Made by a program: the position numbers and the translations under genes. A DNA stretch of 41,681 nt from Nitrosomonas sp. GTDB taxonomy: Bacteria; Pseudomonadota; Gammaproteobacteria; Burkholderiales; Nitrosomonadaceae. Position 1 is the stretch's first letter, and the number at the start of each line of letters is the position of its first letter. The stretch spans positions 1 through 41,681 of the forward strand of contig JAJSDU010000024.1 in the NCBI GenBank assembly GCA_028577615.1, given 5' to 3'. The notes below the pieces were generated by a model, which saw only the letters and a program-made list of their open reading frames with translations, was not told where the DNA came from and made no database searches. This document shows positions 1,234-37,562 of the stretch, piece by piece.

Positions 1234-1348
1234 GCGGCTTACATATAGACAGCTCACAATCTGGCAGCGATTGGACAATTTTATATATTTCATCCGGCGC
1301 GGCCATTCTATCAAGCAGGCTTGGAGGTATTCGAGGGTGGCGATATGA
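1220..1348 (+). CDS. small basic hypothetical protein (42 aa)
   Basis: The start at ATG 1220 is preceded by GAGGAGG at about 1201-1207; the upstream in-frame ATG at 1157 lies inside the previous gene and has no such site. The product begins MITNKRLTYR, is rich in Arg and aromatic residues, and has no known domain. Its TGA overlaps the ATG of the exonuclease gene by four bases, consistent with coupled translation. Confidence 0.5.
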   Translation: MITNKRLTYRQLTIWQRLDNFIYFIRRGHSIKQAWRYSRVAI

Positions 1349-2271: not shown

Positions 2272-2281
2272 GGAAATCATC

Positions 2282-3319: not shown

Positions 3320-3324
3320 TCATC

Positions 3325-7937: not shown

Positions 7938-8013
7938 ATGGAAAGAGTTTGATGGGAGTGATGAGCAGATCGCTGAGATGGGTAACTCACGGGCAGGTTG
8001 GATTGTTGAATGA
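7930..8013 (+). CDS. 27-residue mini-ORF, probable remnant of a larger phage protein
   Basis: ATG 7930 has a good AAGGAG site upstream and its TGA overlaps the next ATG at 8010. The peptide contains EFDGSDEQIAEM, which I recognise as the start of a longer phage protein family (typically continuing for tens of residues). Here the frame stops after GWIVE, so it is either a degenerated remnant or a short coupling peptide for the ASCH gene. Confidence 0.4.
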   Translation: MAEWKEFDGSDEQIAEMGNSRAGWIVE

Positions 8014-9531: not shown

Positions 9532-10509
9532 ATGGCATCATTTAGAAAAAAAGGTAATGGATGGGAAGCTTCGATCTGCAAGAAAGGTATTCGCACATCT
9601 AAAACATTCGACACGAAGCTCGCCGCAAGTCACTGGGCAGCCGAGACTGAGAAAGAGATTATATCCGGCAAGCATGGCGAAATACCCAACAAAACTTTTG
9701 GTGACTTATTAACGCGCTATGCAGAGACAGTATCAGTAACAAAACGCGGTGCACAATGGGAGCAGCACAGGATAAACGCTTTTTTACGGGATGAATTTAC
9801 GGACGTAAAATTGTCGCACCTGAAACCTGAGATATTCTCAGCATGGCGTGACAGAAGGCTTGCAAGCGTTACGGCCGGAACTGTTCTGCGCGAAATTAAT
9901 CTACTTTCGCATGCAATCAACACGGCTATTAAAGATTGGGGATGGCTAAAAGTTAATCCACTTTCTGGTATCCGAAGACCTTCAGAGCCGCTTCCGCGCG
10001 ACAGGATAATAACCGACCGCGAAATTGAGAAATTACTTTTCTCGCTTGGATATGATCACGGACGTAAACCTGTCGGTGTATCTGAGCGAGTAGGCGCAGC
10101 TATGCTGTTTGCGATTGAGACCGCTATGCGTGCAGGAGAAATAGCCAAACTAACATGGGATTATGTGAATATTGAGAAGAAAACTGCACGCCTAATTGAA
10201 ACGAAGAACGGCCATAAACGCGATGTACCGCTATCAAGTGAGGCGATACGCATACTCGTACAGGTTAGATCCGATACAGAATCAGTATTTAATCTCGAAG
10301 CCAGCCAGATCGACGTAAATTTCCGTAAAGCGAAAGATCGATGCATGATTGAGGATCTCCATTTTCACGATTTACGCCATACCGCAATTACCAGATTAGC
10401 ATCAAAACTGAATGTGTTGGAACTGGCCCGATGCGTAGGGCATCGTGATCTTAGGCAGCTTCAGATTTATTATAACGAGACAGCGGAAGAAATGGCAAAG
10501 AAGCTTTGA
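9532..10509 (+). CDS. int: tyrosine recombinase / phage integrase
   Basis: 325 residues. N-terminal arm-binding domain (GNGWEASICKKGIRTSKTF, residues about 8-26), core-binding SAM-like domain (about 55-150) and C-terminal catalytic domain. Catalytic residues visible: Arg200 (AMRAGEI), Lys225 (TKNGHKR), His279-x-x-Arg282 (HDLRHT), His304 (GHRD) and nucleophile Tyr313 or Tyr314 (IYYNET). ATG at 9532 has no clear SD; the TTACGGA repeats run right up to it, which could let Int repress its own expression. It should integrate the phage at a tRNA gene through the adjacent att core. Confidence 0.95.
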   Translation: MASFRKKGNGWEASICKKGIRTSKTFDTKLAASHWAAETEKEIISGKHGEIPNKTFGDLLTRYAETVSVTKRGAQWEQHRINAFLRDEFTDVKLSHLKPEIFSAWRDRRLASVTAGTVLREINLLSHAINTAIKDWGWLKVNPLSGIRRPSEPLPRDRIITDREIEKLLFSLGYDHGRKPVGVSERVGAAMLFAIETAMRAGEIAKLTWDYVNIEKKTARLIETKNGHKRDVPLSSEAIRILVQVRSDTESVFNLEASQIDVNFRKAKDRCMIEDLHFHDLRHTAITRLASKLNVLELARCVGHRDLRQLQIYYNETAEEMAKKL

Positions 10510-12922: not shown

Positions 12923-13597
12923 TTAAATATTTGCAAAATAGTTTCGACGAGCACGCCCGTCGATCAGGACTGCATCGAGTTCGGCCTGGGTCAGATACTG
13001 CGGGTGCGGGTCAGTGTTCGCTAGATGCGTGGTCATGCTAGCGGCAGCGCTGCCTAGCGGGTCATAAAATGTATCAGCTTCGGCCTTAGTTAAATATATT
13101 GGATGTGGATCGGCTTTAGCTTCATGAGCCGATATGCCATTATCAACATACTGATGCGTTGCCATCACTATGCTAGGATCAACCGTCAAAGTGATAGTTG
13201 CTGCATTGGATGTTTCTACAATCAGCCGGTAAATGCTATCCCTGGTCATACCCGAAGCCAAAATGGGCTTGAACTCTGGCGCCGTTACACCGATATAAAT
13301 CGGATTTCCGGCAGCATCGTCTATCCTGAATTCACGTATCCAAAAATCACCAACTTCAGGTGGCACAACCAATTCAACGATATACCACGCTGCATTATCA
13401 GGATCTTGGGTTATCGAATTTATATTTGCCCTATAGACCTCGTTAGCCAACGCCTCCGATGCGGGTGTGTGCGCAGGTAATGACCCGTTGCCATCACCTA
13501 ATGCCACTTGCGCAAGATCGACCGCCGTAGCATGCGCAGCCGCATACGCCATCGCAGAAGCGCCAGCATTAGTAAGCAATGTGTAGTAAATACTCAT
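12923..13597 (-). CDS. tail fibre protein, P2 gpH-type N-terminus (DUF3751-like)
   Basis: 224 residues. The N-terminal 150 residues (YYTLLTNAGASAMAYA, VALGDGNG, VPPEVGDFWIREF) are the baseplate-attachment domain of P2-type tail fibres. Two copies of an H-x(5)-DPHP-x-YLT repeat follow (about 155-165 and 190-200), a known trimeric shaft element. It lacks a long C-terminal shaft, so the polyglycine protein downstream probably supplies receptor recognition. Overlaps the gpI-like stop by four bases. Confidence 0.85.
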   Translation of the reverse strand: MSIYYTLLTNAGASAMAYAAAHATAVDLAQVALGDGNGSLPAHTPASEALANEVYRANINSITQDPDNAAWYIVELVVPPEVGDFWIREFRIDDAAGNPIYIGVTAPEFKPILASGMTRDSIYRLIVETSNAATITLTVDPSIVMATHQYVDNGISAHEAKADPHPIYLTKAEADTFYDPLGSAAASMTTHLANTDPHPQYLTQAELDAVLIDGRARRNYFANI

Positions 13598-14304
13598 GCT
13601 GTTTTTGGATAAATAGTGTTAGTGGAAATTCCAATCATTGCAGCACCTATTCGCGTTATGTTTGTCCATTCAGTAGGCTGTGATGCAGCCGGATAAACAA
13701 CAGCTATACTCCCGGTTAACATTGCGGCCCTTATGTAATTGGTTGCACGCCACGTTGTTAGCATCGCAAAATAAAGAATTAAGCGTGCTGGTATTATAGA
13801 ACTCAGTATGGGTGCCATTTTGTCGATGTTTTCCCATGTTGTTTTGGATGAATCGATGGCGACACGCACCCGGCTTGTGGAGAATTTTGTTGAGTCGGCT
13901 CTTAATAATGGTGAAAGCTGGTTTGGGTATGTGCCTGCCTTGGTTTGAGCCATTTGCTCAATGGCATAGCCGTTTGGGAATAAAAGCTGCAGGTATGTGG
14001 CCAGAAAATGGAACCCGCGCCCATTCTTATTGCGTGATTTCCATGCCTTGTAGAGATAACGAGTTGCGGTTTCTTCCCTTTCGCCGTCGATTAATGCCAG
14101 CCCATCAACGTTTACCAGTTTTCTAATCAAATCCATAGATCCAAGGTGCCCAACGCCAATAACATTCATATCAAAAGCGCTTTGTGCCATCATTGACTCA
14201 AACAGATCGATGAATAGATTGCGCAGGTCGTTTTCAACATCATCAACAGTAAAACTGTTTTTTAGCGGCTTTAGTTCAGGTAATTGTGCGTTAAGAAAAT
14301 CCAC
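13594..14304 (-). CDS. baseplate/tail protein, gpI-like
   Basis: 236 residues from a GTG directly after the gpJ stop. The position between gpJ and the tail fibre and the N-terminal MDFLNAQLPELKPLK region match the P2 gpI / Mu gp48 slot. The motif YLYKAWKSRNKNGRG lies at about residue 90. Sequence similarity to P2 gpI itself is weak by eye, so the call rests partly on order. Expected at the baseplate edge, joining wedge and fibre. Confidence 0.65.
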   Translation of the reverse strand: MDFLNAQLPELKPLKNSFTVDDVENDLRNLFIDLFESMMAQSAFDMNVIGVGHLGSMDLIRKLVNVDGLALIDGEREETATRYLYKAWKSRNKNGRGFHFLATYLQLLFPNGYAIEQMAQTKAGTYPNQLSPLLRADSTKFSTSRVRVAIDSSKTTWENIDKMAPILSSIIPARLILYFAMLTTWRATNYIRAAMLTGSIAVVYPAASQPTEWTNITRIGAAMIGISTNTIYPKTA

Positions 14305-15798
14305 TTATTGCCCCCAGGCAGGCGGCAAGACATTTTCAGAGGTAACGGTAACCGTCAAGCTTGTAGCAGAAACATAACGCCATAATTCTGGCCGGTAATC
14401 TCCAACTGGTGAGGCAATAGTCACCCGAATATCAGCGTTTGCATCAGATAATGCCGCTATTTTTTCTTTGAGCAACGCATAAACCCGTTTGTAGAGCGGT
14501 TTATTAGCGCTTCGCTTTGATCCGGGTTGCTCTTCACCGTATTCTGCAAGTATCGTTTCGATTATTTGTGATTGAACGTCACCGGCAACGTATGCCGTGG
14601 AAATGGTGGCTGTTATGGTCATAGCTATTTCAGACCGAACCGGGGTCATGAATTTAACCCGATAGCTATTGTCGGCTTTCAGTATGACACCACGGATGCC
14701 TTTCTGTGTTGCGGTCAGGTTAATTTCGGCAATTAAATTGGGCGTGACTGGTGTTTCTGGATTCGGTTCTGTCAGCACGGTTTCAGTACCATCGACAGAC
14801 AAGCAAGCCACAAATAAAGTATTGATGTTATCTACATTAGCTCCCCTAGCAACCTCTTCTATGGCCTCGTTCCAGATCGACAGGAATTTGGTATTGCTAT
14901 ATTTCCGCCTGACAACGAAGTCAAATTCACCCAAGAAAACAGCATTGTGATTGTATACGGATGGATATTTAACCAAATCGCGCATGGTCGTCATATCTGG
15001 TGGGTTTATGCCACTTTCTAAAAGCGATGAAAGCGATAATTCAACAGCCGATTCGTTTGGTGATTGCAGGTATTCAAAAGAAAATGGCGAACCCGATGCG
15101 GGTGAAATTTCGCCCGCAGTGCGTGAGATAGTGAGCGTTATAACCTGCCCGTCAGCCGGTTGAACACCAACAATATCAGCCTGCCCGAAACGCACATAAA
15201 TACGCTGCCTATCGTCAGCCTCGACGTGAAAAACGCGCTCATCAGGCCAAGTATTTACATATCGCTCGCGGTACTCATACTCACCACCGACATCACTCAC
15301 AGATATCCCGCTAAGGTATGTATCATCAATGGATTCGGGTATCTCGATGGCATAAAAAGGGGTGCTGCCTGATACCGTGTGACTGATGGTTTCACGCTTG
15401 GATTGCACCGCATCGAATGTGCCTGTGCCATTTGCCGCAATAACAGCCGATGTTTCAATAATGTACGACAAGCCCGCTGAATCAATAATGGTTCTGCCGG
15501 TATCGACCGTGAAAGCGGTGCTATTGCCATTTTTTACGGCTATTCTGACTCTGCCAGGGTTTGCTTTTCGGATTACGCCACGCATAGCAGCATCAGCCAG
15601 GACGGTAGCGTCACGCACTTTCTCGAACGGTTCCGCCATCGCGGTTTCGATCTGGGATGAAAACATGGCCAGCATGGCAGCCATGGCATCCAAACTTTGC
15701 AGGATACGCGGGTCACCGGCTTGATAAAGTGGAGCGACGGCTGGGTATGCGGCTATCGAGTCTACAATTGCTTGCTGAAAGTCTTTTTTAGTCAGCAT
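14305..15798 (-). CDS. baseplate J-like protein
   Basis: 497 residues from ATG 15798 (GGAG about 10 bases upstream); the longer frame to 15843 would run into the gp25-like gene. The family pattern is visible: a helical N-terminus (DAMAAMLAMFSSQIETAMAE), ATVLADAAMRG, the beta-rich middle, and the late LLKEKIAALSDANADIRV region before the C-terminal strand. gpJ/gp47 proteins form the wedge of contractile-tail baseplates. Lies between the gp25-like and gpI-like genes as in P2 and Mu. Confidence 0.88.
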   Translation of the reverse strand: MLTKKDFQQAIVDSIAAYPAVAPLYQAGDPRILQSLDAMAAMLAMFSSQIETAMAEPFEKVRDATVLADAAMRGVIRKANPGRVRIAVKNGNSTAFTVDTGRTIIDSAGLSYIIETSAVIAANGTGTFDAVQSKRETISHTVSGSTPFYAIEIPESIDDTYLSGISVSDVGGEYEYRERYVNTWPDERVFHVEADDRQRIYVRFGQADIVGVQPADGQVITLTISRTAGEISPASGSPFSFEYLQSPNESAVELSLSSLLESGINPPDMTTMRDLVKYPSVYNHNAVFLGEFDFVVRRKYSNTKFLSIWNEAIEEVARGANVDNINTLFVACLSVDGTETVLTEPNPETPVTPNLIAEINLTATQKGIRGVILKADNSYRVKFMTPVRSEIAMTITATISTAYVAGDVQSQIIETILAEYGEEQPGSKRSANKPLYKRVYALLKEKIAALSDANADIRVTIASPVGDYRPELWRYVSATSLTVTVTSENVLPPAWGQ

Positions 15799-15799
15799 T

Positions 15800-16096
15800 T
15801 CATCGCGACTCCGGAACCGTGATTGTTTGCCCGGCCACTTCAATTACCAAGTCAAGTCTATCGGGTGGTGTTTGTACGCCGTAAAGGTTGACTGCACCTC
15901 TTGGCAGAGCCTGAAGCACCGGAACATCGACGCGCAACTTTTCTAGCAGTGCCTCGGGCGCGCCGTCAGCTTGCGGTCTGTGCAAGAGAGCTTTTATGTC
16001 TTGCCCATAAGATGACCCAAGGTAGCCGTTGACCGGCACACGGAGCCAGTGCGATACCATATCTTGAATGTCGTTGCCGGTAATAGTATTTGCCAT
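15800..16096 (-). CDS. gp25-like baseplate wedge protein
   Basis: 98 residues, the usual length of the gpW/gp25 family. Typical segments are RVPVNGYLGSSYG, DIKALLH and a short helix ending before LRVDVPVL. It forms the inner wedge of the baseplate and initiates sheath assembly in contractile phages. First gene of the minus-strand cluster 16096-10765. In Mu-like phages the gene before it is the spike, but here the spike lies 20 kb away at 36.0 kb. Confidence 0.8.
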   Translation of the reverse strand: MANTITGNDIQDMVSHWLRVPVNGYLGSSYGQDIKALLHRPQADGAPEALLEKLRVDVPVLQALPRGAVNLYGVQTPPDRLDLVIEVAGQTITVPESR

Positions 16097-16239: not shown

Positions 16240-16647
16240 GTGAACAAATTAACGATCTTCAGAAAAGATGATCTTAAAAGGATCATAGAAGAAGCAACCA
16301 TCGACCAGACAGACGATCAATGGATAGAAGTTTTCTTGAAAGGAGCGTCAAATCTGATCGGTTCAAATCCGATAATCTACCGCTCATTTGGCCCGTTTTG
16401 GTGGGTTCTAAAAAAATATCTGCAAGATGAAAATCTTAATTCCGGTGAGCCGGTAGACACTGACGTATTTAATCAGATCACCATGGGAGAAAAGATTCTT
16501 GATATAGCGGCCGCTTATGCGTATCACGACATAACCACAAAAGACATGACAGCAACGCAATCGACTAGAACCATTGAATCAGACGACGGAACAATCGATT
16601 ACACATTGATTGATGAAGAAATGGAAGCAATCATTGCATTCAAGTGA
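16240..16647 (+). CDS. lone plus-strand hypothetical gene (135 aa), moron-like
   Basis: GTG 16240 with AAGGA 10 bases upstream. The product is acidic and helical (MNKLTIFRKDDLKRIIEE); residues about 30-55 contain FLKGASNLIGSN and SFGPFWWVLKKYL. No known domain. It sits against the direction of the flanking late genes and is followed at once by its own terminator. A TTGACA box at 16158-16163 lies upstream, with only a weak -10. This arrangement is that of a moron expressed in the lysogen. Confidence 0.7.
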   Translation: MNKLTIFRKDDLKRIIEEATIDQTDDQWIEVFLKGASNLIGSNPIIYRSFGPFWWVLKKYLQDENLNSGEPVDTDVFNQITMGEKILDIAAAYAYHDITTKDMTATQSTRTIESDDGTIDYTLIDEEMEAIIAFK

Positions 16648-16685: not shown

Positions 16686-19600
16686 TTACTTCAAGGCCTC
16701 ATAAAGAGCCTCAATATCGGTTCCTGATGGCACGCGCCATGTGTTATCGCCATATTTCCGATCACCTTTAGGTAGGTCTGATGAATATTTAATACCCAGG
16801 AAGCGCGCATCGAATTTTTTCTTAAGAGGATTCTCTGCGCCAGCGAGCCTGTCTTTAAGAGTCCAGCCACTGTCTTTCATCCAGAAAGCATCATATGGTT
16901 GCAACGTAATCTTTTCCCAGCGGGTTGCGATTTGCACAACCTCTGTGTTGTAAAACACATCGATCCCAAGCGCTTTAAATCTATCCTTTAAATCTTGCGG
17001 TATTTCTCGATAGCCGGGAACAGACTTTAATGCCGCTTCTTTGACTAATTGCTCTTCATGTTCCAGTTGACGCACAACTTCACGCAGATTACTTATTTTT
17101 GCAGAAGTTACCTCTTTTGTTATGCGTTCGATCTCATCAAAATTAATAAACTCATTTTCCTTCATCCATGATTTAATTTTCACAATAATGGATTGATATG
17201 GACTATCCTCGTAATAAGAGTAACCAAGATTGCGTATTATCGCGTTCACCGCCTCTTTGTCAGAAACAGGCATATCCTTCTTGATGACCTCATCCATTGC
17301 TGAAACAGCTTGAATCCTAATGTCTTCAGGTTGAGCCGTTTTTAGTTTGGAAAGCAAGTTTGATTCCCAGGAATCGCCAAATATTGCGGGCATAAAATCT
17401 TTGAAATACACGGAATTGATTCCGCCAGTACCTTGACGCGACTTCTTGTACTCTTCGATCAATGCAGATTGTAATTTCCTGTCATTTTTATCAGGATAAA
17501 TTGCATTATTCTTTGTTACCCAGTATTTTCCTGAGCTCCATATTATCTCACCACCATCTGCGTAATACAGGAAGCCGTCCGACTGAATTTTATCGAAATT
17601 GTTGAAGAAGAAATCCTTGTCGACCTCCGCAAACTCCTTAAATACATGTTGTTTATTTAACCATTTCATGCGCTCCATTTCATCTGGAGCCAGCTTGACT
17701 TCTACAGCGAAATCCAACAATTTGTCTGCGTTGTAAGTGCCATAAGTGTTCCCAATAATGGCCTCCACGGTAATATTCCTGCCCGGCACATCTATTTCCG
17801 TCACTCTGGAAATTTGTTCGCGGTTATTGCGATCAAACTTAAAAACACTGCCGATGGTTATCAGCATACGCTTGCCGGTAAACATGATGGATTCTGGCGC
17901 ATCAAGAAGCGCAGCACCAAATGGCAACTCGCCTTTCTTTTCAATACCCTTCAGGAACGCCGTGATTTGCCGTTTCTGAGCTTCGGCATCAGACTGTTTT
18001 TTGGTATAAGTCGCCTCGACTCTACCAACCTTATTTCTTGCTGCGGCAACTGATAATTCAGCGCGATCAATATCTTCTTTTGATGCGCCTTCTGCTTTCA
18101 AACGTTCAAATCTGGTAATCGCTTTTTCGATATCTTTTTGAGCATCGGAAATAGCTTTTGCTTTGTGCGTCTCAAAACTTGCCAGAAAATTAACGGCCAT
18201 AGATAACTGGCCGAGCTTGATCTTGGCGGTATTGTTACGCCGGTCCCTATCCTCGGCTTCTTTTTTTACCTTCATTTCAGCCATGGTTTTGAGAAATTCT
18301 TCGCGGTCATCGGACAACAAAGCAGCTTGCTCGATAGCGCCCATAGCCTCGGCATTTTCAGCACTATCGTTTTCTGCGTTGCGGTCCATCAACGCCGCAA
18401 TCCAATTTCCTTTGTTTTTTAGCAGGTCCAGCCGGTATTCATCAAATGAGCCTTTGGCCTGATAATAATAAACCCGCACTTCAGATCGGGTATTGCCTTG
18501 TCTTACGCCGCGCCCGTTTCGTTGTTGCAAGCTGGCTGGATTCCAGGGCAGCGTCAGATGATGGATGGCCGAAGTACCTTTTTGCAGGTTTACTCCTACT
18601 TCGGCTTTTTTGTTGGCAACAATGATCCTAACTTCGCCACGGTTAAAAGCATCGGAGATTTGTTGCAGTTTTTCTCCAGCCGCAGTGTCTGCATTAATGA
18701 TGGAGACCTGATCGGCCGTAACAGGGAGATGATTCGTTATGAGTCGCAATAACTTGGCGTGCTGGCTTTTTTCCTCGGTAAACACCAATTGCTTTCCGCT
18801 GGAATCCAACTCCGCACGCATGTTTTCTATTAATTTTGCATACTTGGGGCGCAATGGATGGCTGACATAATCAATCTTGAACTTGGTTATTCTGGAATCG
18901 ACATATTCAGCATATATTTCAGGCGTAATGTAGCTGATCGTATCGCCTTTTGCGGCATATTTGGATTCTTTTTTTACATCAATGGTTACGATATTATCGC
19001 CTTCTTTTTTGCTGCCCTTCAGTTTTTTGAGCTCTCCGGTCTCTTCATCTTCAACGAAAGATTGGCTTAGCTGATCAGGTAAATCTGAGATTAAGGCATC
19101 CAGCTTTCCTTGATCTTCATGCTTGAATAAATATGTTGCTACGCCATAATACATATCAACATCGGTTGTAACCCTGTCCATGTCTCGCAAAACGGCAAAC
19201 ATCGGCCTCGCCTTGCCGTTTTTAACATTCTCCGGATTGCCAGCGGCTTTCGCTTCTTCGCGTAATTGCAGATACAGATCATGCTGATCACTGGTCATTT
19301 CAAGTTGATCGATCATTTCAACTGCTGATGGCAATTTCATGACGCTGCCATCGGGGTCAACATCTTTAGGTCCGCGCATCAATGCGTAGCGATGGAACAG
19401 CCCACGCAGAGCATTAAGGTTCTTGAACCCAGCCAACCCTTCGCGCTTTTCGACAGATCCCCTGACCGTAAGCTTATCAACATCTTGAATAATGCCGAAC
19501 TGGCGCACAAAATCATCAGGGGTATGGATGCCAATGCGCTCAAACTCGGATTGATCAATCACCAGGGACAGCATGTTGAATATTTCTATCGGACTGTTGG

Positions 19601-22600
19601 CTACGGGCGTGGCGGTTAGCAAAATAGCGCCCTTACCATCGTATTTGTCACGCAACCACGCCGTTTTCATGGCCATATCAGTAGCACGCTGAGAGACGGC
19701 GGCATTCGGCAAATAGGCTAGTTTGGCAGTATCTCCGTCCTGGATTTTATAGCTGTTGCGGAATTGATGCGCCTCATCAACGATAACTCGATCAAATCCC
19801 ATGTCTTCAAAATACGGGTACTCATCCTTTTTGATGCCGCCTTCATCGGAGAATTGACCGCGAATGCGATCTTGATTTTTGGCATCGTTGTAAGACTTGG
19901 ATTTCTCTTCGGCGTCATCACCATTCTTAGCAAACATTTTCTTCATTTCCGCTTTGCTCATCATGGATTTTTTAACCCACTTTCCAGCATAGCCAAGCCG
20001 GGTTTCTTCGCGCAAAGGGATATCCTTGAATTTCTCCTGCGTCATAATGACGATTGACTTATCAGTGTGCGGTATCAAGTGCATTTTTGTATACACTTCA
20101 TCCTTGTCTTCCTTGCGCAAAACGTCCTGATATTCAATTTGCCCGGTAAATTTATTGACCTTTGGCTGTCCGTTTTCATCCAGAACCGGCTCTTGTTTAA
20201 TTTCACCTGTTTTGGAATCGCGTACCGGATCAAAGCCGACAAACATCACATCATTATGATCGCCGTAAAGCGCTTTTGACTCCATGTACCAGTTTGCCAG
20301 AACCGAATTGGGCACAACGATGCAATGCTTTTTAGATCGCCCCATTTGACGATCATAGGCGCTCAAAGCCAGTGCACTGGACGTGTTGTGCGTAACAATA
20401 AATTCATCAGTAATATATAAATGTGATGGATGATCAATGCTAATACATTGAGCTTCGGCTAAGCCGATACTCTCAATTTTTGTAAAAAACCTAACTGGCT
20501 GATACTTAGTTTTTGGCTTAACCTTTTCAGCTTTTCTTTTTAGCTTGAATGGATTTGTTTTAGACGGAATACGCATGGAAACAGTAAATGCCTCTTTACC
20601 CTTGCGCCTCTCATCATTGTGCGTGTAAGTTGGGATTTTGCTGGACTGCCAGGCAATACCGCCCAAACTTTGAACCAAATGAACAACGCCATCAGCAAGT
20701 AATTTTGATGTGCTTGTGAATTGAACAGTTATACCGTCTTTGCTGACATGCCCATCCGTATCCATTAAGCCGCGCAACAACTCTAATCTCTGATTGGCAG
20801 AGCCAAACTTATAAATGTCTGGAATGAACTTTTCGTGCGAACCAAGTCCGTCAAGCCCCAGAGTTCTCAATTGCGCTTTTACAAAATTCTCGACATTGCC
20901 GCCGATATTTCCTTGGGAAATTGAATAAGATGGTGATCTATTGGCTAACGAATTTACTTTTTTAACTTCAACACCAATTGATTTTTCTGAAATGATTTTC
21001 GCTACGCGCTCCGCTATTTCATCGTCGCCAGGGGTAAAAGTAACACCACCATTTCTGAAACAACCGTCGCCCAACAAAACCCCTATGACATAAGGATCGA
21101 TTGCAAAATCAATCACATCAAAATCAGCCGGAGAAACAAGCGGAATTGCATGATTTTTCTGCGTTTGGTAAATCAGGGTATCTTTTATTTCAGACAGAGA
21201 TTTGACACTCCCATGGAACGACAATTCCTTCCCATTTCGCTTGTGGTAGCGTTCGTTTTTACGATCCTTTTCTGTTTTAGTGAGCCACAGGTGTTCGTCG
21301 CAGCAGCGTGTTTTAGAGCCATCACTAAACATTACTTCAAATATTTCCTTTTTGCCTTGCGGAAATACGCCAGTAACAGGAACGCGCGAACCATCGGCAG
21401 AAATAACAAGGTCGCCAACCTTAATATCACCCATTAAAACCCATCCATTGGGAGTCAGCACTTTAGCGTCGAGCGGTTGAGCCTTGCCCAAACCAACATC
21501 AAACCCAAGAATTCCAGTGCCTTCCTCAGAGAGTTGCCGCACACCTTGATTCTGGTACCAGTGCAATTTGATCTTGCCTGACATTCCTTTGATCCCAAGA
21601 TCATTGCTGTCATACTCAGGTTTCACATAATTGTTAAATGTGATGTTGTAAGTACGCTCGATTTCTTGAAAATCAGCGTGAGATTGCATGAAATACTTGA
21701 ATTGCTCTTCCAGATCGTTGACTCGCGCCCTCAGGTCTGCAATACGATCCCTACCCTCCTCTTCTGTTTTGGATAACCGGTAGCTTATGCTTTGCCCATT
21801 CATGTAGTACTCAAGCTGCCTGGCAAACACATCCCGTTTGCGCTGCCCCGCATCGATTTTCCATGTTCCTGTTACATCGGCTGTATCATTGTTTACCTCG
21901 AAGCCCATGTACACTTCACCGGTTTCAGATTCCTTCTCCACATCTTCAATTCGAGAATAACTGAAACGGTAGCCGCTTTTTTCCAAAAATTCGCGCTTAT
22001 ACTTCTGGTCATACCATTTATCTCGCAGACCGAATGAAATATCTTCAATGCTTGTGCGCCTGACCTTGGATAGCATCAAATCAATGGTCTTTTGGTATTT
22101 ATCCTTGATTCTCAGATCCGTCTCTCCGTCCATGACGCTCTGAATGTCAGCGCATTTTTTGTAGATTTCGCCATTGCAGTAATCTTTGGTAGTTGAGATA
22201 AAACCTGCTGGCGTGAACACGATACCGTCAATATCGGCAATATCACCAAGCGATTCTATGTTGCGACCGCCTTTGTATAACCGTTTCAGATCATCCAGAG
22301 TAACATCAGAAAGCCCTTCTCTTTGAAAATAAGAAACGATAGATAATGGCTCTTCTGCGTTATAACCGGACGCATCTTCAATACCATCCTTGATGATGCT
22401 GGATACACCCCCTTTCTTGTCTATTGCCTGAAGGAATGATCCAAAATAGCGAGCTTGTTCGCCCTCCAACACAAACCCTTTGATTGAACTTGGATGGCCA
22501 TATTTTTTGAACTCTCGCTCTAACAGTGATCTGACATGCTCACGGTCTGCGCTATCGGTATCACGGTTGTTTGCTCTGGCAATGTATTTGGTAACCAATG

Positions 22601-24113
22601 AACCAAGCAATGAACCGCGGTAGGCTTGTTCGCGCAAAGAATCCAACGGTTGTGACTTGGCAAATAAAATAGCTTGCGTTTGCTGGCTATTGAATAGGTT
22701 TGGGTAGGTTGAGAATGCATTAATTGCCTGCTGGTAAGTGATAGACAGCATGGATTCAGGGCTTTTTAGAATCTCCGCCAGGTCATCCAATGTGGCAGCG
22801 CCAAACTTGTTTTTATCAATGCCATTTGCATGGTCTGCGGTATAAGCAACCTCGCTCCAAGCGCCATTCTCGAGCACATGCTCTTTGCCGTTGATGATCC
22901 TGCGATCACCCTCCGCATAGTAGTTAATGACAGGAGCCACGCTATCCAGCATAACCCAGTCAATGCGTGAGTCGAATTTAATTGCCAGGGAACGCCTCAA
23001 GGATTCATCTGTCATGCCTTCTTCAGCAATGACTTGCTCCATTGGCCTGAAGTCGTCTTTATTGGGCGGAACATACTGCCCCTTAATAAATCGCTTACCT
23101 TCACCCAGCCAGTATTTGCCCTTGATAAATTCATCCCACAGAACGTTTGCAGACCTTAAAGTGTCCGCAGTGTAACCATCTATTTTGTCTAACAAATCAG
23201 TGGAATGTTTGCGTAGAACAATAATGTCAGTCACAACATCGGTGCCTTGCTTGCCGAAGGTTTTTGATGGCAGTTTGTGCCCACCAAGGAATTCCGCCTT
23301 GCGGCTTATTTCTGCACGGAATTTCTTCCACGGTTCAGTAACATTCCCCATCACTCTGGTAGGTACTACCAAGGCAATCAAGCCGCCAGGGCGTGTTTTA
23401 TCGATGACCCGGCTGATAAAGTAACGCTCAATGTATTTTTCTTTTTTGTATTGCGGGTCATCATTAGCAGACGGTCCGCGCACATCACCAAAAGGAACAT
23501 TACCTACCACGCCATCGAAGTGATTATCTGGAGTGGCAACCGCCAGCTTTTCAAATGACTGATTGAGAATCTTATCTTCCGGATGCAGTATTTGATTGAC
23601 TGTTGAGGATACGGGGTCAATCTCTGTGCCAGTAATTACCGTTCCTCTTGGTTTGGTAGCGCTAAACACACCAGAACCAGTTGATGGTTCGAGAGTGTTG
23701 CCATTCTCAAAGCCATTCTCTTTGAGCAAATCCCACATACCCTCAGCCACAGGTGTCGGGGTATAGTATTCGTACTGACTGTTATCAGATAAACCTCCCT
23801 TGCCTGAATATTGTTTCAGCAGATCAATTTCTTCTGAGGTGAGCGTTTTTGGATCTTTGCCAGCATTGACTTGATCGACGATTGAGGCGACTTGCGCATT
23901 GATTTTTTCGCGGGTCTTGATGCCGCTTGATTGCAGTCCGAATGTTGCGCCTGATTCTTGCTGATTGCCACCCACCAAACCAAGCTTGATCATAGCTTCT
24001 GATTTTGTCTTTTGCGCCTGACGTTTTGCGACAAACGACGGATTCCCAGAAAGGATTTTGTTTTGTTCTAATATCGTGTTTTGGATAGCTCTTTTTTCTG
24101 CAAATGAAATCAT
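16686..24113 (-). CDS. DarB-like N6-adenine methyltransferase / SNF2-type helicase, intein-interrupted (2475 aa)
   Basis: N-terminal methyltransferase: motif I LEPSTGSG (about 141-148) and motif IV NVPF (205-208, a variant NPPF). Helicase motif I DVGLGK lies at 872-877 with its Thr displaced to 1244 by an intein (878-1243). DEAH is at about 1446, LLTATP at about 1498 and NGRGVRQGNTR at about 1863. A long coiled and alpha/beta C-terminus follows. The spliced product would be 2109 residues. The layout matches phage P1 DarB, a virion-packaged antirestriction protein of 2255 residues. ATG 24113 is preceded by AGGAC next to an inverted repeat. The methyltransferase half may be catalytically altered, given Val in NVPF. 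Confidence 0.88.
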   Translation of the reverse strand: MISFAEKRAIQNTILEQNKILSGNPSFVAKRQAQKTKSEAMIKLGLVGGNQQESGATFGLQSSGIKTREKINAQVASIVDQVNAGKDPKTLTSEEIDLLKQYSGKGGLSDNSQYEYYTPTPVAEGMWDLLKENGFENGNTLEPSTGSGVFSATKPRGTVITGTEIDPVSSTVNQILHPEDKILNQSFEKLAVATPDNHFDGVVGNVPFGDVRGPSANDDPQYKKEKYIERYFISRVIDKTRPGGLIALVVPTRVMGNVTEPWKKFRAEISRKAEFLGGHKLPSKTFGKQGTDVVTDIIVLRKHSTDLLDKIDGYTADTLRSANVLWDEFIKGKYWLGEGKRFIKGQYVPPNKDDFRPMEQVIAEEGMTDESLRRSLAIKFDSRIDWVMLDSVAPVINYYAEGDRRIINGKEHVLENGAWSEVAYTADHANGIDKNKFGAATLDDLAEILKSPESMLSITYQQAINAFSTYPNLFNSQQTQAILFAKSQPLDSLREQAYRGSLLGSLVTKYIARANNRDTDSADREHVRSLLEREFKKYGHPSSIKGFVLEGEQARYFGSFLQAIDKKGGVSSIIKDGIEDASGYNAEEPLSIVSYFQREGLSDVTLDDLKRLYKGGRNIESLGDIADIDGIVFTPAGFISTTKDYCNGEIYKKCADIQSVMDGETDLRIKDKYQKTIDLMLSKVRRTSIEDISFGLRDKWYDQKYKREFLEKSGYRFSYSRIEDVEKESETGEVYMGFEVNNDTADVTGTWKIDAGQRKRDVFARQLEYYMNGQSISYRLSKTEEEGRDRIADLRARVNDLEEQFKYFMQSHADFQEIERTYNITFNNYVKPEYDSNDLGIKGMSGKIKLHWYQNQGVRQLSEEGTGILGFDVGLGKAQPLDAKVLTPNGWVLMGDIKVGDLVISADGSRVPVTGVFPQGKKEIFEVMFSDGSKTRCCDEHLWLTKTEKDRKNERYHKRNGKELSFHGSVKSLSEIKDTLIYQTQKNHAIPLVSPADFDVIDFAIDPYVIGVLLGDGCFRNGGVTFTPGDDEIAERVAKIISEKSIGVEVKKVNSLANRSPSYSISQGNIGGNVENFVKAQLRTLGLDGLGSHEKFIPDIYKFGSANQRLELLRGLMDTDGHVSKDGITVQFTSTSKLLADGVVHLVQSLGGIAWQSSKIPTYTHNDERRKGKEAFTVSMRIPSKTNPFKLKRKAEKVKPKTKYQPVRFFTKIESIGLAEAQCISIDHPSHLYITDEFIVTHNTSSALALSAYDRQMGRSKKHCIVVPNSVLANWYMESKALYGDHNDVMFVGFDPVRDSKTGEIKQEPVLDENGQPKVNKFTGQIEYQDVLRKEDKDEVYTKMHLIPHTDKSIVIMTQEKFKDIPLREETRLGYAGKWVKKSMMSKAEMKKMFAKNGDDAEEKSKSYNDAKNQDRIRGQFSDEGGIKKDEYPYFEDMGFDRVIVDEAHQFRNSYKIQDGDTAKLAYLPNAAVSQRATDMAMKTAWLRDKYDGKGAILLTATPVANSPIEIFNMLSLVIDQSEFERIGIHTPDDFVRQFGIIQDVDKLTVRGSVEKREGLAGFKNLNALRGLFHRYALMRGPKDVDPDGSVMKLPSAVEMIDQLEMTSDQHDLYLQLREEAKAAGNPENVKNGKARPMFAVLRDMDRVTTDVDMYYGVATYLFKHEDQGKLDALISDLPDQLSQSFVEDEETGELKKLKGSKKEGDNIVTIDVKKESKYAAKGDTISYITPEIYAEYVDSRITKFKIDYVSHPLRPKYAKLIENMRAELDSSGKQLVFTEEKSQHAKLLRLITNHLPVTADQVSIINADTAAGEKLQQISDAFNRGEVRIIVANKKAEVGVNLQKGTSAIHHLTLPWNPASLQQRNGRGVRQGNTRSEVRVYYYQAKGSFDEYRLDLLKNKGNWIAALMDRNAENDSAENAEAMGAIEQAALLSDDREEFLKTMAEMKVKKEAEDRDRRNNTAKIKLGQLSMAVNFLASFETHKAKAISDAQKDIEKAITRFERLKAEGASKEDIDRAELSVAAARNKVGRVEATYTKKQSDAEAQKRQITAFLKGIEKKGELPFGAALLDAPESIMFTGKRMLITIGSVFKFDRNNREQISRVTEIDVPGRNITVEAIIGNTYGTYNADKLLDFAVEVKLAPDEMERMKWLNKQHVFKEFAEVDKDFFFNNFDKIQSDGFLYYADGGEIIWSSGKYWVTKNNAIYPDKNDRKLQSALIEEYKKSRQGTGGINSVYFKDFMPAIFGDSWESNLLSKLKTAQPEDIRIQAVSAMDEVIKKDMPVSDKEAVNAIIRNLGYSYYEDSPYQSIIVKIKSWMKENEFINFDEIERITKEVTSAKISNLREVVRQLEHEEQLVKEAALKSVPGYREIPQDLKDRFKALGIDVFYNTEVVQIATRWEKITLQPYDAFWMKDSGWTLKDRLAGAENPLKKKFDARFLGIKYSSDLPKGDRKYGDNTWRVPSGTDIEALYEALK
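20385..21482 (-). other. class 3 intein with LAGLIDADG endonuclease domain, in the DarB-like helicase
   Basis: 366 in-frame codons split helicase motif I between Lys and Thr (GLGK/TSS). The segment begins AQPLDAKVLTPNGW and ends IVTHN before Thr+1. Residue 1 is Ala, so class 1 chemistry is impossible. The class 3 triad is present: Trp66 two residues after block B His64 (DEHLW), Cys346 at block F position 4 (AQCISID) and Thr364 before the penultimate His365-Asn366. Endonuclease motifs are VIGVLLGDG (132-140) and LLRGLMDTDG (235-244) with acidic Asp139 and Asp243. The endonuclease looks intact. The Deinococcus Snf2 intein is, from memory, a class 3 intein in a related helicase. Confidence 0.93.
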
Positions 24114-24246: not shown

Positions 24247-26736
24247 TTAACTGACTTTTTCAGCCGCGGATAGTAACGCAGTAAGCACATCAGCCGCATT
24301 ATTCAGTTCCTTATCCAGCGCTTCAAGCAAACCGGCTTGCTCAATCCTGGCCGCAATCTCATCAAGGCGCTCATTGAATCGATTGATATCGGTTTCGGAT
24401 TTTAGGGCTTCCAGTTCGGCTGCGAATCCGGATTGGGTTGTATCGGCAGGCAATACACTTTTCTGCGGCTGATCATTGCCTTTTGAAATAAGGTATTCAG
24501 CGTAATCCATGCCGGTCTTTGTTGTACTCTTCTCGCTCATATAAGTATCACTTCCAGGAGTTGTTAGCATACGCTCTCCATCAGTTAGCTCAACAATGCG
24601 ACCCTCCGAAACAAGATGTTCAATCATTTTCTTGCGCGATATTATTTGATCGCCGTTATATCTGACCTGAGTTATCAATGCCTGCCTTGCTTTTTCTGAA
24701 TTAGGTGGAGACATTCCCATGGATCTAGTGAACTCAGCTATTTCAGCATCAGTCTTGGCTGAAGCTTCAGCGGATGCTTTGGAACTTTCTTCTAGCAATT
24801 TGTTGATTTCTTCTCGATCCACTACTTCCTTAGCGTATTCCGGGGTTATCCTATATTCATCTTCTTTGATTACTTCCTCAATATTCTTTATCGAATAGCG
24901 TCGAATAGAGCCATCCTCAAGGGTTTTGACTTCGTAAAGATCGCCTCCAAAGATGCCAACAATCTTTTGCCTTCCCCCTGCGGCATTCCACTCACGACCG
25001 ATATTGGGATCGTCTTTTTCTTTATCCGGCAATCCTTTAATCTCCCTAATAGTTTTGGGAGTCCAATACAAATCAAGCTCAACACCAGCGTCAATCAATT
25101 CCTGGATGCTGATATAGCCAAGTTCGCCACCGTAACCAATATTTGCAAGCCCGAATGCCTGGAATTGCTCATCTTCCATATCCTTTTCGGTAATATGCCA
25201 GTCACCGCCACCTTTGAAATAGTGCAGATAGGCAATAGCCTTATCGCCCATACCGTCTTGCCCGTAAGTTTTTGGCATGGTTTGGATTACGTTAGCAATC
25301 TCAATCAACTTATCCTTGAAAAACTGCCCTTCTTCGCCACGAATACCCATACCGATTGCAGATAACTGAGATTTTCCGATGAACTGCTTTAACAGCGGCA
25401 TGACGGCGTTCACATCTGCTATGGTTGCTTGCTGATCAAAATTATCCTCAAGCTCAGGCAATCTCTCGCCGGTATCTTTAATAACTTTCAAAATTACCAT
25501 GTTGACCTCATTATCCGATTCATCTAAAATTGAATCCATAGTGAGCAAGGGAGAGATAGGCGATCCGGGCTTGGCTGTTGGCTCACTAGGCACCCCTGGA
25601 CATCGGAACGTCTCCCCACGGATTAAAGCCGCATCAAGGGAATTCTCTGGCGCGGCTTTTTTCTTTATCCAGTTAGGAACTCCGTCGTGACCGATTCCAT
25701 ACACAGTATAGACATACTCACCGTTTTGGCGCTCCCCAACATTTACCCCGGCTGTGACAATAACGCTGTCAATACTCACGTCCATTTCAAAGAAATGAAA
25801 AGCAACAAAACGATCTTGCCGGTCTTTGTTTAACTCCGTTCTCCCGTCATACTTGCCGCTTGATAAGATCAAGGGAACCTTTGGTATTAACTTAGCCTTT
25901 AATTCATCAGATTTCATTCCTCGTTTCATTTCGCGCCAGCTTGAGCCGTTCATGTGAACATCACCAATCACGGTCTTTACGATTCTTCCTTGTAATTCAG
26001 ATTTATAGAATTCCTTCGCAGCGACAAATGTGTCGCCGCCAAATTCTTCAAGATAAGTATCAAATAGCTTGCTTGGATTTTTGAATTCAACTGGCGATGA
26101 AACAACGCCCAAAGCATTACGAATTTCCTTGATACGCTTCACCATATTCAGCTTTTCCAATCCGGATTGAACAGTTTTCAGGCGCGCGCGGATGCTTCCG
26201 GCTTCTTTAATCAGCTTGATTTTATCTATTCCGGATATGCTATCAAGAGTCGCATCAACAATATTTTTCACTTCATCGTCAGCGATTGCGGAATCATTGG
26301 TAATCATGGCTTGCATAATGTTTTCTTCCTGTGGTTGTTCGTCGTTATCTTCAACTGAATTCTCGATATCTTCCTGGATGTATGCCAGTAAATCCTCGAA
26401 TGGCGGCATCACTTCAATTACGCCACCTCGCGGCTGGCAGAATCCATACAGTTCTCTGGGTGAAAGGTTCCGGCTATCCAGCAAGTGACCGTGTTCGCCG
26501 CTTACCTGATTGATGAATAACCAATCCTTGAAAAAACTGATTGCCAGCTCATCGCCACTGTATTCGATTGGAATATCCTCATCTTCAGCGAAAATCGCAT
26601 CGAATTGACCGGCAGGCGCAAAAACTTTGTAAGTGCCACCATATATTTCCTGTTCATTCTTTACCGGCGCAATCTCACTACCTGCAGGAGAAACCAGTTC
26701 ATATTTCAAACTACCAAAATTGTTTTCTTCAATCAT
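24247..26736 (-). CDS. polyvalent protein with LPD3/BECR-like and DUF2958-like domains (829 aa)
   Basis: Visible parts in order: a unique N-terminus (1-145); two KL-x-LVKR-type helical repeats (about 165-210; GLEKLNMVKRIKEIR); a region at about 250-345 (GRIVKTVIGDVHMNG to YVYTVYGIGHD) resembling the LPD3 or phage BECR-nuclease domains of polyvalent proteins; and a DUF2958-like domain at about 490-560 (DWHITEKD, GGELGYISIQEL). Two further segments follow, one with NGDQIISRKKMIEHL. No catalytic residues can be assigned with certainty. Starts in an ATGA overlap with the upstream metallopeptidase gene. Probably injected with the DNA, as for other polyvalent proteins; that is inference. Confidence 0.7.
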   Translation of the reverse strand: MIEENNFGSLKYELVSPAGSEIAPVKNEQEIYGGTYKVFAPAGQFDAIFAEDEDIPIEYSGDELAISFFKDWLFINQVSGEHGHLLDSRNLSPRELYGFCQPRGGVIEVMPPFEDLLAYIQEDIENSVEDNDEQPQEENIMQAMITNDSAIADDEVKNIVDATLDSISGIDKIKLIKEAGSIRARLKTVQSGLEKLNMVKRIKEIRNALGVVSSPVEFKNPSKLFDTYLEEFGGDTFVAAKEFYKSELQGRIVKTVIGDVHMNGSSWREMKRGMKSDELKAKLIPKVPLILSSGKYDGRTELNKDRQDRFVAFHFFEMDVSIDSVIVTAGVNVGERQNGEYVYTVYGIGHDGVPNWIKKKAAPENSLDAALIRGETFRCPGVPSEPTAKPGSPISPLLTMDSILDESDNEVNMVILKVIKDTGERLPELEDNFDQQATIADVNAVMPLLKQFIGKSQLSAIGMGIRGEEGQFFKDKLIEIANVIQTMPKTYGQDGMGDKAIAYLHYFKGGGDWHITEKDMEDEQFQAFGLANIGYGGELGYISIQELIDAGVELDLYWTPKTIREIKGLPDKEKDDPNIGREWNAAGGRQKIVGIFGGDLYEVKTLEDGSIRRYSIKNIEEVIKEDEYRITPEYAKEVVDREEINKLLEESSKASAEASAKTDAEIAEFTRSMGMSPPNSEKARQALITQVRYNGDQIISRKKMIEHLVSEGRIVELTDGERMLTTPGSDTYMSEKSTTKTGMDYAEYLISKGNDQPQKSVLPADTTQSGFAAELEALKSETDINRFNERLDEIAARIEQAGLLEALDKELNNAADVLTALLSAAEKVS

Positions 26737-28659: not shown

Positions 28660-30618
28660 CTATCCGTTAACTTGCTGGTCAAGCGCCGCCCATTTCTCGG
28701 CTGCAGCTCCAATCAGTGAGTCGTAATCTTCACCCTTACCAGCCTCGATAATCGCATTCGCAGACGCTTCAATCTTATCCAGCAAGGCCATTAGATCATC
28801 CTTGTCTTTGTCGCCATCCACAACCGATTTTAGGAATTCTCTGGCCGCTTTCATATCTTCTGATTCGGCTTCGATTTCCGCGGCGTCAGGGTTTAACTCT
28901 GTCGAATTAGACGGAATTGGAACGGCAACAGAGTCTATTTCAGCAGCAAGCTGCTCAGGGGTTTTGGATAGATCGTCACGGAGCAATGTGAACTCACTCA
29001 TTTTGGCGTTTACACCATGTCCTACTGTATGAGATAGGCTGTATGTGACACCCACAACATTTTTGCCAGCGCCTACTTGCGCAAAATCCCTTGTTACAGA
29101 GTAAACAAGGCCGGACCCCATAGAATCCTCACCAATCAGTTTTGACAGAATTTGTTTATTGCCCCCAGGGTGGGACCAGTTGGCGGCCATCAACGCATTA
29201 TTTACAGCAACAATCCGTTCCTGAAACAATGCATCAAGATCATCCTGATACTTCAACTGCAATTCAGAATCTGCCATGATTTTGGCGTAATCTTCTGGGG
29301 ATGTTGGGTTCAGCGCCACTTCAACTGCTCTTTGGTTGTCTGTGGGCTGCTCACCAGTTTTGTCGGCATTATCTGCCTCTGGTTGCCGCGGCACTGGTTT
29401 TCGATCTTCAGCAGCAACCTTGGCAATTTCCAATTCATTCTGCGCACTTTTCAACTCAGCCTCCAAAACAACAATTTCATCCTTCAAAGATTGAATGTTC
29501 TGCATACGATCCGCACGTTTTGAATTTGCACGAGCAAAAGCTGGGCTGTTCTTTTCAGCCAGTTTCAGGATACGGCGAGCCACCTCACGTACATTCAGAT
29601 CCTCGCCACGTTCCGGGGCAACCACAATCGTGATATCTTTCTTGTTCAACAGCCATTTGTAAGAAATAACATCATCATTCGGTGATAGCTTTGCTGGTGT
29701 TGCATCAGGATTGTGAAAATAGATTGACACGGTTTGCCCGTCTGATAGCTCATAAACCACAGCCACATTCGCCACGCCAAATTGCTTGAATGGCTCGGTT
29801 ATTTGCATAGCCACAGGTTTAATCCCCGTGCCCATACGCTCCATAACGCCCTGCAAAACTTCCATTTTTCGCTGCAGTTTGATGTAAGGCGTAACCAGCG
29901 CATCAAGCGCCAAAATACCGTCAGAATCGGCAATAATCTCATCAATTCTCACCGCATCCAATAGCAGGTTTTCGCCTGAATCTGATTGCCGTATCTCATA
30001 CAGAACCTGATCGATAGTGGCGTTATATGGCTGCGCGTTTTCATCCCAATGCACTTTTCTTGTCATGGCTTCTAATCCTTCCGGTGGTAAATTTTCTAAT
30101 TTGATAGGCTGGCTCTTATTGCCGTGCTTGAGCCACCATTTGAGTTGGTTAATCGATAGTGGAATTATGCTTTTAAGACCCTTCCAGCCGCGCTCATGGC
30201 TATGCAGATAAGCATTTCTTGCCGTTTCTTCATCGGGAAAAGCCAGCATGATTTTATGTTCATCGAAACGGCCATCGATGTACTGATTGATAGCGTATGC
30301 AATCTCGGATTGCGGGTATGGACCAACAAAACAATCAACGCCGTCGCCATCTGCTCCCTTGGTGCCGCTTATGTAGCCATAATGCGCTGCCATGCGCGAA
30401 GTCCAGCGCTTGCCGGTCTTTGAATCAATCCCGGTTCGATAGGTGCCGCGCGGCTGTTCTATGGCTATTGAGAGACCCTGGAAAGAGACCCTTCCCATTT
30501 TGTAGTTACCGGCCTTGCACTGCGCTTCGGTTGGTTCTGGGATAGGATTCTTGCCGAAAGCGCCACCATGGGCAGCGTTTTCGATGTTAAGAAATGTGGT
30601 ATCAGTTGAATGTGTCAT
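28660..30618 (-). CDS. polyvalent protein with inorganic-pyrophosphatase-like N-domain (652 aa)
   Basis: Residues about 40-180 (YRTGIDSKTGKRW, HYGYISGTKGADGDGVDCFVGP, FDEHKIMLAF) are the pyrophosphatase-like domain common in phage polyvalent proteins. The acidic motif DGDGVD at 90-95 is in the right place for metal binding. A second conserved block at about 285-380 (VSIYFHNPD, ISYKWLLNKKDITIVVAPE, ARRILKLAEKNS) recurs in DarB-associated phage proteins. It is followed by a coiled coil (about 385-410) and an acidic C-terminus. First gene of the polyvalent operon. Enzymatic activity is unproven. Confidence 0.75.
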   Translation of the reverse strand: MTHSTDTTFLNIENAAHGGAFGKNPIPEPTEAQCKAGNYKMGRVSFQGLSIAIEQPRGTYRTGIDSKTGKRWTSRMAAHYGYISGTKGADGDGVDCFVGPYPQSEIAYAINQYIDGRFDEHKIMLAFPDEETARNAYLHSHERGWKGLKSIIPLSINQLKWWLKHGNKSQPIKLENLPPEGLEAMTRKVHWDENAQPYNATIDQVLYEIRQSDSGENLLLDAVRIDEIIADSDGILALDALVTPYIKLQRKMEVLQGVMERMGTGIKPVAMQITEPFKQFGVANVAVVYELSDGQTVSIYFHNPDATPAKLSPNDDVISYKWLLNKKDITIVVAPERGEDLNVREVARRILKLAEKNSPAFARANSKRADRMQNIQSLKDEIVVLEAELKSAQNELEIAKVAAEDRKPVPRQPEADNADKTGEQPTDNQRAVEVALNPTSPEDYAKIMADSELQLKYQDDLDALFQERIVAVNNALMAANWSHPGGNKQILSKLIGEDSMGSGLVYSVTRDFAQVGAGKNVVGVTYSLSHTVGHGVNAKMSEFTLLRDDLSKTPEQLAAEIDSVAVPIPSNSTELNPDAAEIEAESEDMKAAREFLKSVVDGDKDKDDLMALLDKIEASANAIIEAGKGEDYDSLIGAAAEKWAALDQQVNG

Positions 30619-36653: not shown

Positions 36654-37562
36654 TTAATCCTCCAATGAACCAAGCCAAAGGCGTGTGTACTGATTGCTTC
36701 CGCTGCCATCAGTGCCGCTCTGAAATACGTGCGCAGCAGTAATGACAACGAGCGGATCGCGCCCGGTGAAATTGATTAAATCACCGGCTGAAATACCGGC
36801 TGATAAGTTTATGTTCGATATCTTGCGTTGCACCAAGCAGCGTGACATATTGCGCAGGCGTTGCGCATTCATGAACGGAGCGTAACGCACGCTCCTTGTC
36901 TTTCTTTGATCGCCCAAGACAAAGCCACCGGTATCATTCAAAGAGTAGAACCAGGGTATTTCATGCCGCTCAAGGAATCCGCTATTAATATAATCCGATG
37001 CATTATCAGGTAACTCCATGATCGGATCTTGCTTAAATAGATCAGGCAGGCGAAAGAATTTTAACCGGCCATCCTTCCATCGAACTATCCCGCCCTCCTC
37101 CTGTAATGCCCTGGCAATATGGAAGCTTGGGGTATCTCCTACAGGGCAATAGAAACGTGGCACCGGGAAATCCGCATCAACTGCCTTAATGGTAGCGCCA
37201 GATGCTCGGTAGATTGCTGACAAAACAGCGCTTTCTTTGATAATAGCCCGGCTGCGCACAAAAGCCACGCCATGACAAGTATCAAGTATGGCAGTAATCC
37301 GGATTGCGTCCATTTCCCTTGATCCCTGCACTACCCTGTTCTCAACCAAGGTTGATTTTATGATGCGCATAGAATCGCCTGATGACGCAGAGTTGCCGCC
37401 AGCCGTTATTACCTCACCATCGGCCAATTTCTTGGCCATATCTTCATCGGCCCGGATCTCTGCTTCAAGCGTAACCGGTACCGGCGACATATCAGAGCGG
37501 ATTACGGTGGATTTTATTAAATCTCCACGAATCTGTTCTCCGCTATTCAGGTAGAGAATCAC
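36654..37562 (-). CDS. baseplate hub protein, gpD/gp44-like
   Basis: 302 residues. FYCPVGDTPSFHIARALQEEGGIVRWKDGRL is the hub-family signature (late-control protein gpD/gp44 type), preceded by two beta-rich domains. The C-terminal LINFTGRDPLVVITAAHVF is also typical. It lies directly ahead of the spike, as expected for the hub that carries it. Confidence 0.75.
   Translation of the reverse strand: MILYLNSGEQIRGDLIKSTVIRSDMSPVPVTLEAEIRADEDMAKKLADGEVITAGGNSASSGDSMRIIKSTLVENRVVQGSREMDAIRITAILDTCHGVAFVRSRAIIKESAVLSAIYRASGATIKAVDADFPVPRFYCPVGDTPSFHIARALQEEGGIVRWKDGRLKFFRLPDLFKQDPIMELPDNASDYINSGFLERHEIPWFYSLNDTGGFVLGDQRKTRSVRYAPFMNAQRLRNMSRCLVQRKISNINLSAGISAGDLINFTGRDPLVVITAAHVFQSGTDGSGSNQYTRLWLGSLED

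Follow-up and report, generated by a model that had tools for sequence, protein, structure and literature searches.

A DarB-type gene interrupted within helicase motif I

The window analysed here is a stretch of 41,681 nucleotides that forms one entire contig (JAJSDU010000024.1) of a 2.6 Mb Nitrosomonas sp. genome (GCA_028577615.1). Its minus strand carries a darB-type open reading frame (ORF) of 2475 amino acids (16686–24113), in which an adenine methylase is fused to an SNF2 helicase; helicase motif I of this phage DarB-type protein is interrupted between Lys and Thr (GLGK/T) by an insert that is very probably a class 3 intein carrying its own two-motif LAGLIDADG homing endonuclease. The N-extein of 877 amino acids contains the methylase and is encoded at 21483–24113 (minus strand; alignment and codon check), its last residues being the GLGK that begins motif I (21483–21494). 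The intein accounts for the next 366 amino acids, and the C-extein of 1232 amino acids, with the SNF2 helicase, is encoded at 16686–20384 (minus strand, stop codon included); its first residue, Thr+1 (codon 20382–20384), is also the Thr of motif I.

The host ORF matched the Pfam domains PF07669 (Eco57I-type methylase), PF00176 (SNF2) and PF00271 (helicase C-terminal), and its top PHROGs were phrog_1685 and phrog_11801 (named DNA methyltransferase), with phrog_10089 (DarB-like antirestriction) ranking fourth. Homology to DarB of phage P1 is full-length, with 282 of 823 aligned residues identical in the N-extein and 368 of 1154 in the C-extein; the methylase and helicase motifs align with those of P1, Vibrio p0908 and others, and the methylase motif NVPF is common to the window and P1. 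An earlier note on this DNA had called the host DarB-like, which the P1 DarB homology of both exteins, the Pfam domains and the PHROG matches bear out. P1 DarB is known for virion packaging and antirestriction (PMC9024508), and this giant phage protein is thought to shield phage DNA from bacterial restriction.

The reading frame stays open through all 366 codons of the insert (20385–21482, minus strand; residues 878–1243 of the host ORF), in frame with the host. The earlier note had named this insert, its Ala start and four key residues but no strand, and the codon check found each at its named place: Ala1 (21480–21482), Trp66 (21285–21287), Cys346 (20445–20447), Thr364 (20391–20393) and Asn366 (20385–20387), all on the minus strand. 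The extent from Ala1 to Asn366 is supported by codon check, alignments and predicted structure, and the proposed insertion into motif I is likewise backed by sequence, relatives and predicted structure. Similarity of the insert to inteins is far beyond chance: relatives in phage records match its full length, with E-values down to 1e-71, and among natural inteins in the PDB it matched the class 3 M. chimaera DnaB-1 intein (4.7e-9) and gp41-1 (6.4e-9).

The insert carries the class 3 splicing signature

Under the definition of class 3 inteins in PMC5222942, which also provides the block numbering used here, the Trp B:12, Cys F:4, Thr G:5 signature is complete, as Trp66, Cys346 and Thr364, while residue 1 is Ala and the intein start offers no Cys, Ser or Thr nucleophile. 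Further class 3 residues are present: His64 (B:10), the C-terminal His365-Asn366 and Thr+1. The block B residues His64-Leu65-Trp66 (21285–21293) were placed by alignments, and the predicted initiating nucleophile Cys346 and the terminal Thr364-His365-Asn366 (20385–20393; G:5–G:7) by alignments and codon check; all lie on the minus strand. His64, Trp66, Cys346 and Thr364 align onto His65, Trp67, Cys124 and Thr143 of the solved M. chimaera class 3 intein (numbering from PMC7664689), and these four together with His365 and Asn366 are invariant both in an alignment of 21 rows (A1) and in one of 44 selected full-length sequences (A3), from which L008, L023 and L024, among others, were excluded. The assignment to class 3 with a full Trp-Cys-Thr triad, as first put forward in the earlier note, is upheld by sequence, relatives and predicted structure.

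Following the class 3 scheme of PMC5222942, Cys346, helped by His64 and Trp66, would attack the Lys-Ala1 bond and take the N-extein; the chain would then be handed to Thr+1, Asn366 would cyclise with the assistance of His365, and an O-to-N shift would restore GLGKT. It is a reasonable inference that the precursor is unable to use ATP until spliced; for P-loop inteins, PMC6195587 reports that the precursor of archaeal RadA loses its ATPase function and assumes the same of DnaB.

A two-motif homing endonuclease domain

A LAGLIDADG homing endonuclease domain spans about residues 124–327 (20502–21113, minus strand), according to the model range aligned to I-Tsp061I and a Pfam match (LAGLIDADG_3, E=1.9e-11). 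Each of its two motifs contains an acidic residue: VIGVLLGDG (21063–21089, minus strand) has Asp139, aligned with PI-SceI Asp218, and LRGLMDTDG (20751–20777, minus strand) has Asp243, aligned with PI-SceI Asp326. Asp139, Asp241 and Asp243 are invariant in A3, and no ten-residue block of the predicted intein model falls below a pLDDT of 79. With both motifs and aspartates in place, sequence, relatives and predicted structure agree with the earlier description of the endonuclease as intact-looking; its cleavage activity, like the catalysis of splicing, is predicted from sequence and models.

Empty insertion sites in the DarB family

Alignment with 11 intein-free DarB homologues, six named (L051–L056) and five from the same genus (L038, L039, L041, L042 and L043; L040 and L044, the other two of the seven same-genus loci available, were excluded), showed motif I Gly-Leu-Gly-Lys followed directly by Thr in every case, with zero residues in the 366 intein columns. 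This is the comparison with intein-free homologues that the earlier note had called for; because the segment is absent from all 11, it is not part of the helicase fold, and a host-gene fold is ruled out.

The site was also judged by script in a survey with C-extein alignment that kept 80 loci from each source, the best of at least 554 viral and of 161 genome loci; many of them seem to be near-duplicates from enteric P1-like phages. It was empty in 78 viral and 75 genome loci (153 of 160) and held an intein in one locus of each set (L072 and L161); four further loci (L191, L199, L201 and L216) could not be scored by the script. An intein at the motif I site is therefore rare within the DarB family, at 2 of 156 evaluable loci found with the DarB query. 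One surveyed gene, the intein-free darB-type L083 (IMGVR 3300024966_000001, around position 8000), has an in-frame stop within motif I, which is either a real break or an assembly error. In L216, a Burkholderiaceae metagenome-assembled genome, an apparent C-terminal end of a different intein (LVHN then Cys) lies just before position 3324 in the motif II region, which, judging from sequence, may be another intein site of DarB proteins.

DarB-hosted inteins and their hosts follow different trees

Besides the window, four DarB-type lineages carry an intein between Lys and Thr of motif I: L003 (identical to L161 over a 2681-residue frame, with the same intein as L002), L072, L219 and L221. Their inteins are 62%, 62%, 54% and 47% identical to that of the window, in this order, and the hosts 34%, 45%, 33% and 27% over the first 450 C-extein residues, a stretch in which the lowest value among the five is 26% (L072 versus L221). 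In a tree of 104 inteins, the window groups with L003 and L072 (support 99); L219, and then L221 together with L222, attach with supports of 89 and 88, neither of them strong. In a tree of 64 C-exteins chosen from a larger set (5 with and 59 without intein), the presence of the intein needs five changes, the maximum for five rows, and close relatives that lack the intein exist for the window, for L072 and for L219. This discordance is probably what repeated lateral entry of a mobile lineage at one site would give. Where two such phages co-occupy a cell, the intein could spread: the endonuclease would cut the motif I codons of a darB allele that lacks it, and repair would copy the intein into the cut allele. 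No co-conversion tract is claimed from the DNA flanks of the five intein-bearing and eight empty darB sites, which were compared by eye.

The intein nearest to that of L221 (support 99) is in L222 (1532–2770), where it follows GSVRSAK in a non-DarB protein, a pairing that suggests a jump between hosts. The jumbo phages PhiPA3 and PS119XW (L034 and L036) encode proteins of about 1050 amino acids annotated as DarB-like antirestriction, with an intein of the same kind at GTGK before Thr; these inteins place elsewhere in the tree than the DarB-hosted group.

Alternative explanations and a conserved Cys-Cys pair

Several observations weigh against an active, mobile class 3 intein. The class 1 intein gp41-1 (6.4e-9) is about as near in sequence as class 3 inteins (4.7e-9 and 2.9e-8), and the top PDB match (5.8e-11) is a gp41-1 engineered with the class 3 signature. 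By structure, a Prp8 intein (17.6) and gp41-1 (17.5) score little below the leading values of 19.2 and 18.7, and a class 3 split intein, AceL NrdHF, reaches just 14.9; fold and sequence similarity alone do not settle the splicing class. Asp139 is not family-wide, being Asn in L008 and L023, and L024 has degenerate motifs, all three outside A3. An intein that retains the motifs can be dead, the title of PMC3196547 calling the Arsp-FB24 DnaB intein a pseudogene, and dS was saturated in all four pairs compared, so that selection on the intein could not be estimated. Both trees came from quick searches, L221 and L054 sit on very long host-tree branches, and the host tree cannot separate gains from an old presence of the intein in DarB with many losses.

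On this evidence we consider it unlikely, if worth keeping in mind, that the insert is a decaying intein, inherited vertically, with splicing kept or lost and an endonuclease that no longer cuts. Such decay does occur in the family, to judge from the Asn replacements in L008 and L023 and the degenerate motifs of L024; no close copy of the window intein was found, its best relatives being 62% identical, and it is absent from all 36 other same-genus genomes searched. The window copy itself, however, has both motifs and their aspartates intact and a predicted model that stays within the ten-residue pLDDT bound given above, and the disagreement of host and intein trees speaks against vertical inheritance.

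A vicinal pair, Cys60-Cys61 (21300–21305, minus strand; alignment and codon check), lies just ahead of the catalytic His64. It is found in all five DarB-hosted inteins, and 38 of the 103 surveyed inteins have a Cys-Cys pair there; the L072 intein has no cysteines beyond this pair and the catalytic one. Cys61 stands where the mycobacterial class 3 DnaB intein has the Asp of DxxH, so that the window has CxxH; in M. smegmatis DnaBi1 the block B Asp lies in the catalytic centre, oxidation ties the catalytic Cys to a different Cys in an inhibitory disulfide, and conditional splicing has been shown for a mycobacterial class 3 intein (PMC6195587). A redox switch through Cys60 or Cys61 is plausible. 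A broader proposition strikes us as improbable: that a dedicated class 3 lineage is specialised on darB motif I and gates, by redox state, an anti-restriction motor that is injected. On that reading, a reversible disulfide with Cys346 could keep DarB as an ATPase-dead precursor; because the capsid-targeting signal of the P1 protein is N-terminal (PMC9024508), this precursor could still be packaged unspliced, and splicing could follow once it is in the reducing cytoplasm of a new host.

A class 2 route, in which Thr+1 would attack the Lys-Ala1 bond directly and Cys346 would be dispensable, is compatible with Ala1 (PMC5222942, Fig. 1 legend), and yet we give it very little credence: the Trp-Cys-Thr signature is complete, is invariant in the 21-row and 44-row alignments and aligns with that of a solved class 3 intein, and its presence led us to reject class 2. 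Class 1 is rejected because of Ala1 and the same signature; fold and overall similarity, which separate the classes poorly, were not the grounds.

That the insert is a fixed, functionally recruited helicase domain kept in the mature protein is almost certainly wrong: its reading frame fits that of the host and an insert is present in five DarB-type lineages, but it splits motif I, is absent without trace from the 11 aligned homologues, from 153 of 160 DarB loci and from L083, and has relatives after the motif I or Walker A Lys of many other proteins.

A large intein family that favours P-loops

We searched phage, viral, plasmid and genome records. Relatives of the intein occurred in 780 of 50,697 phage records, 603 of which reach a coverage of 80% or more, and the plasmid set yielded 38 of 72,556, both being counts of relatives irrespective of splicing class; among 37 genomes of the genus, the window's own included, the intein was found in that one alone. 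From 117 loci examined, two without a C-terminal match (L022 and L030) and seven copies were removed, leaving 108, of which 104 include the N-terminus; some near copies, such as L249 and L253, stay in this set. The C-terminus is Thr-His-Asn in 108 of 108, partly by construction since some search patterns require it. Cys is at F:4 in 107 (in L235 it comes two residues later), and HxW is present in 103 of 104, the exception being L028, where a gapped match had put the start in the wrong place. At +1, 91 have Thr and 17 have Ser; at residue 1, 77 of 104 have Ala, 8 have Ser and the remainder other residues; and the N-extein ends in Lys in 97 of 104 and in Gly-Lys in 88.

With relatives this numerous, the rarity that the earlier note had ascribed to such inteins does not hold. 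Its view that such a host is unusual was not upheld either, the junction between the motif I Lys and Thr being the usual one in the survey and four other DarB-type lineages having been found. P-loop inteins placed between Lys and Thr have already been described as classic (PMC5050341); the Ser or Thr of motif I supplies the needed +1 nucleophile, which would explain the site preference. In the IncC plasmid pKAZ5 (L057, 3001–4107), a class 3-type intein lies in a conjugative transfer gene annotated traD, with GSGK before Thr. Four inteins with the same signature (L258, L267, L276 and L298) are not preceded by Lys (following, for example, LPG), so the family is not confined to P-loops.

Genomic context

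Gene matches to RecE, RecT, integrase, tail fibre, baseplate and tail genes were found at 1321–3319, 9532–10509, 12923–15843 and 36654–37562, and the RecE, RecT, integrase, baseplate and tail matches make it most likely that the contig comes from a temperate phage or prophage. Upstream of darB on the same strand lie a gene with a weak DdrA-like match (24247–26736, minus strand; phrog_1855, E=3.5e-5) and a DarA-like gene (28660–30618, minus strand), whose match to NF052326 has an E-value of 2.5e-26 yet only 92.5 bits against a cut-off of 350. Downstream, between 15800 and 16685, no ORF longer than 98 amino acids was found on the darB strand, as against 146 codons for P1 ulx. An ORF of 135 amino acids (16240–16647, plus strand) faces darB from this side; in P1 and Vibrio p0908 this place is taken by an ORF of some 140 codons that is collinear with darB.

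Discussion

The closest parallels in splicing class are the mycobacterial DnaB inteins M. smegmatis DnaBi1 and M. chimaera DnaB-1, which share with the window intein the Trp-Cys-Thr signature, the lack of a residue-1 nucleophile and the splicing fold. DnaBi1 is also a P-loop insertion (PMC6195587). In contrast to the window intein, however, it has no endonuclease (PMC6195587), and the mycobacterial inteins reside in a replicative helicase and have DxxH in block B, where the DarB-hosted intein has CxxH. The P-loop inteins TerL1-a of mycobacteriophage terminases lie, as here, between the invariant Lys and Thr of Walker A (PMC5050341), a likeness of insertion site in a host that is a terminase. 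Another self-splicing mobile element in a darB-type gene is the group II intron in the DarB-like gene of Streptococcus phage phi-SgaBSJ31_rum (PMC12350094), an RNA intron unrelated in mechanism to the intein.

According to its title, the study of Brace et al. (2010), cited in PMC7664689, concerns a class 3 intein in a Deinococcus radiodurans protein named Snf2. No description of an intein in a DarB protein was found in the literature searched, which did not extend to the class 3 survey of Tori and Perler (2011), where one may be mentioned. What is new is DarB as a host and the conserved Cys-Cys pair beside the catalytic His; the large intein family that favours this site, in numerous motor proteins of phages, was known already.

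The DarB methylase-helicase thus joins the hosts of class 3 inteins, and it supplies full-length members of this class with intact-looking endonucleases. Related inteins at one codon junction in divergent hosts, three of the five having close relatives that lack an intein, make up a natural series for studies of homing, and the Cys-Cys pair by the active site offers a residue-level lead on conditional splicing.
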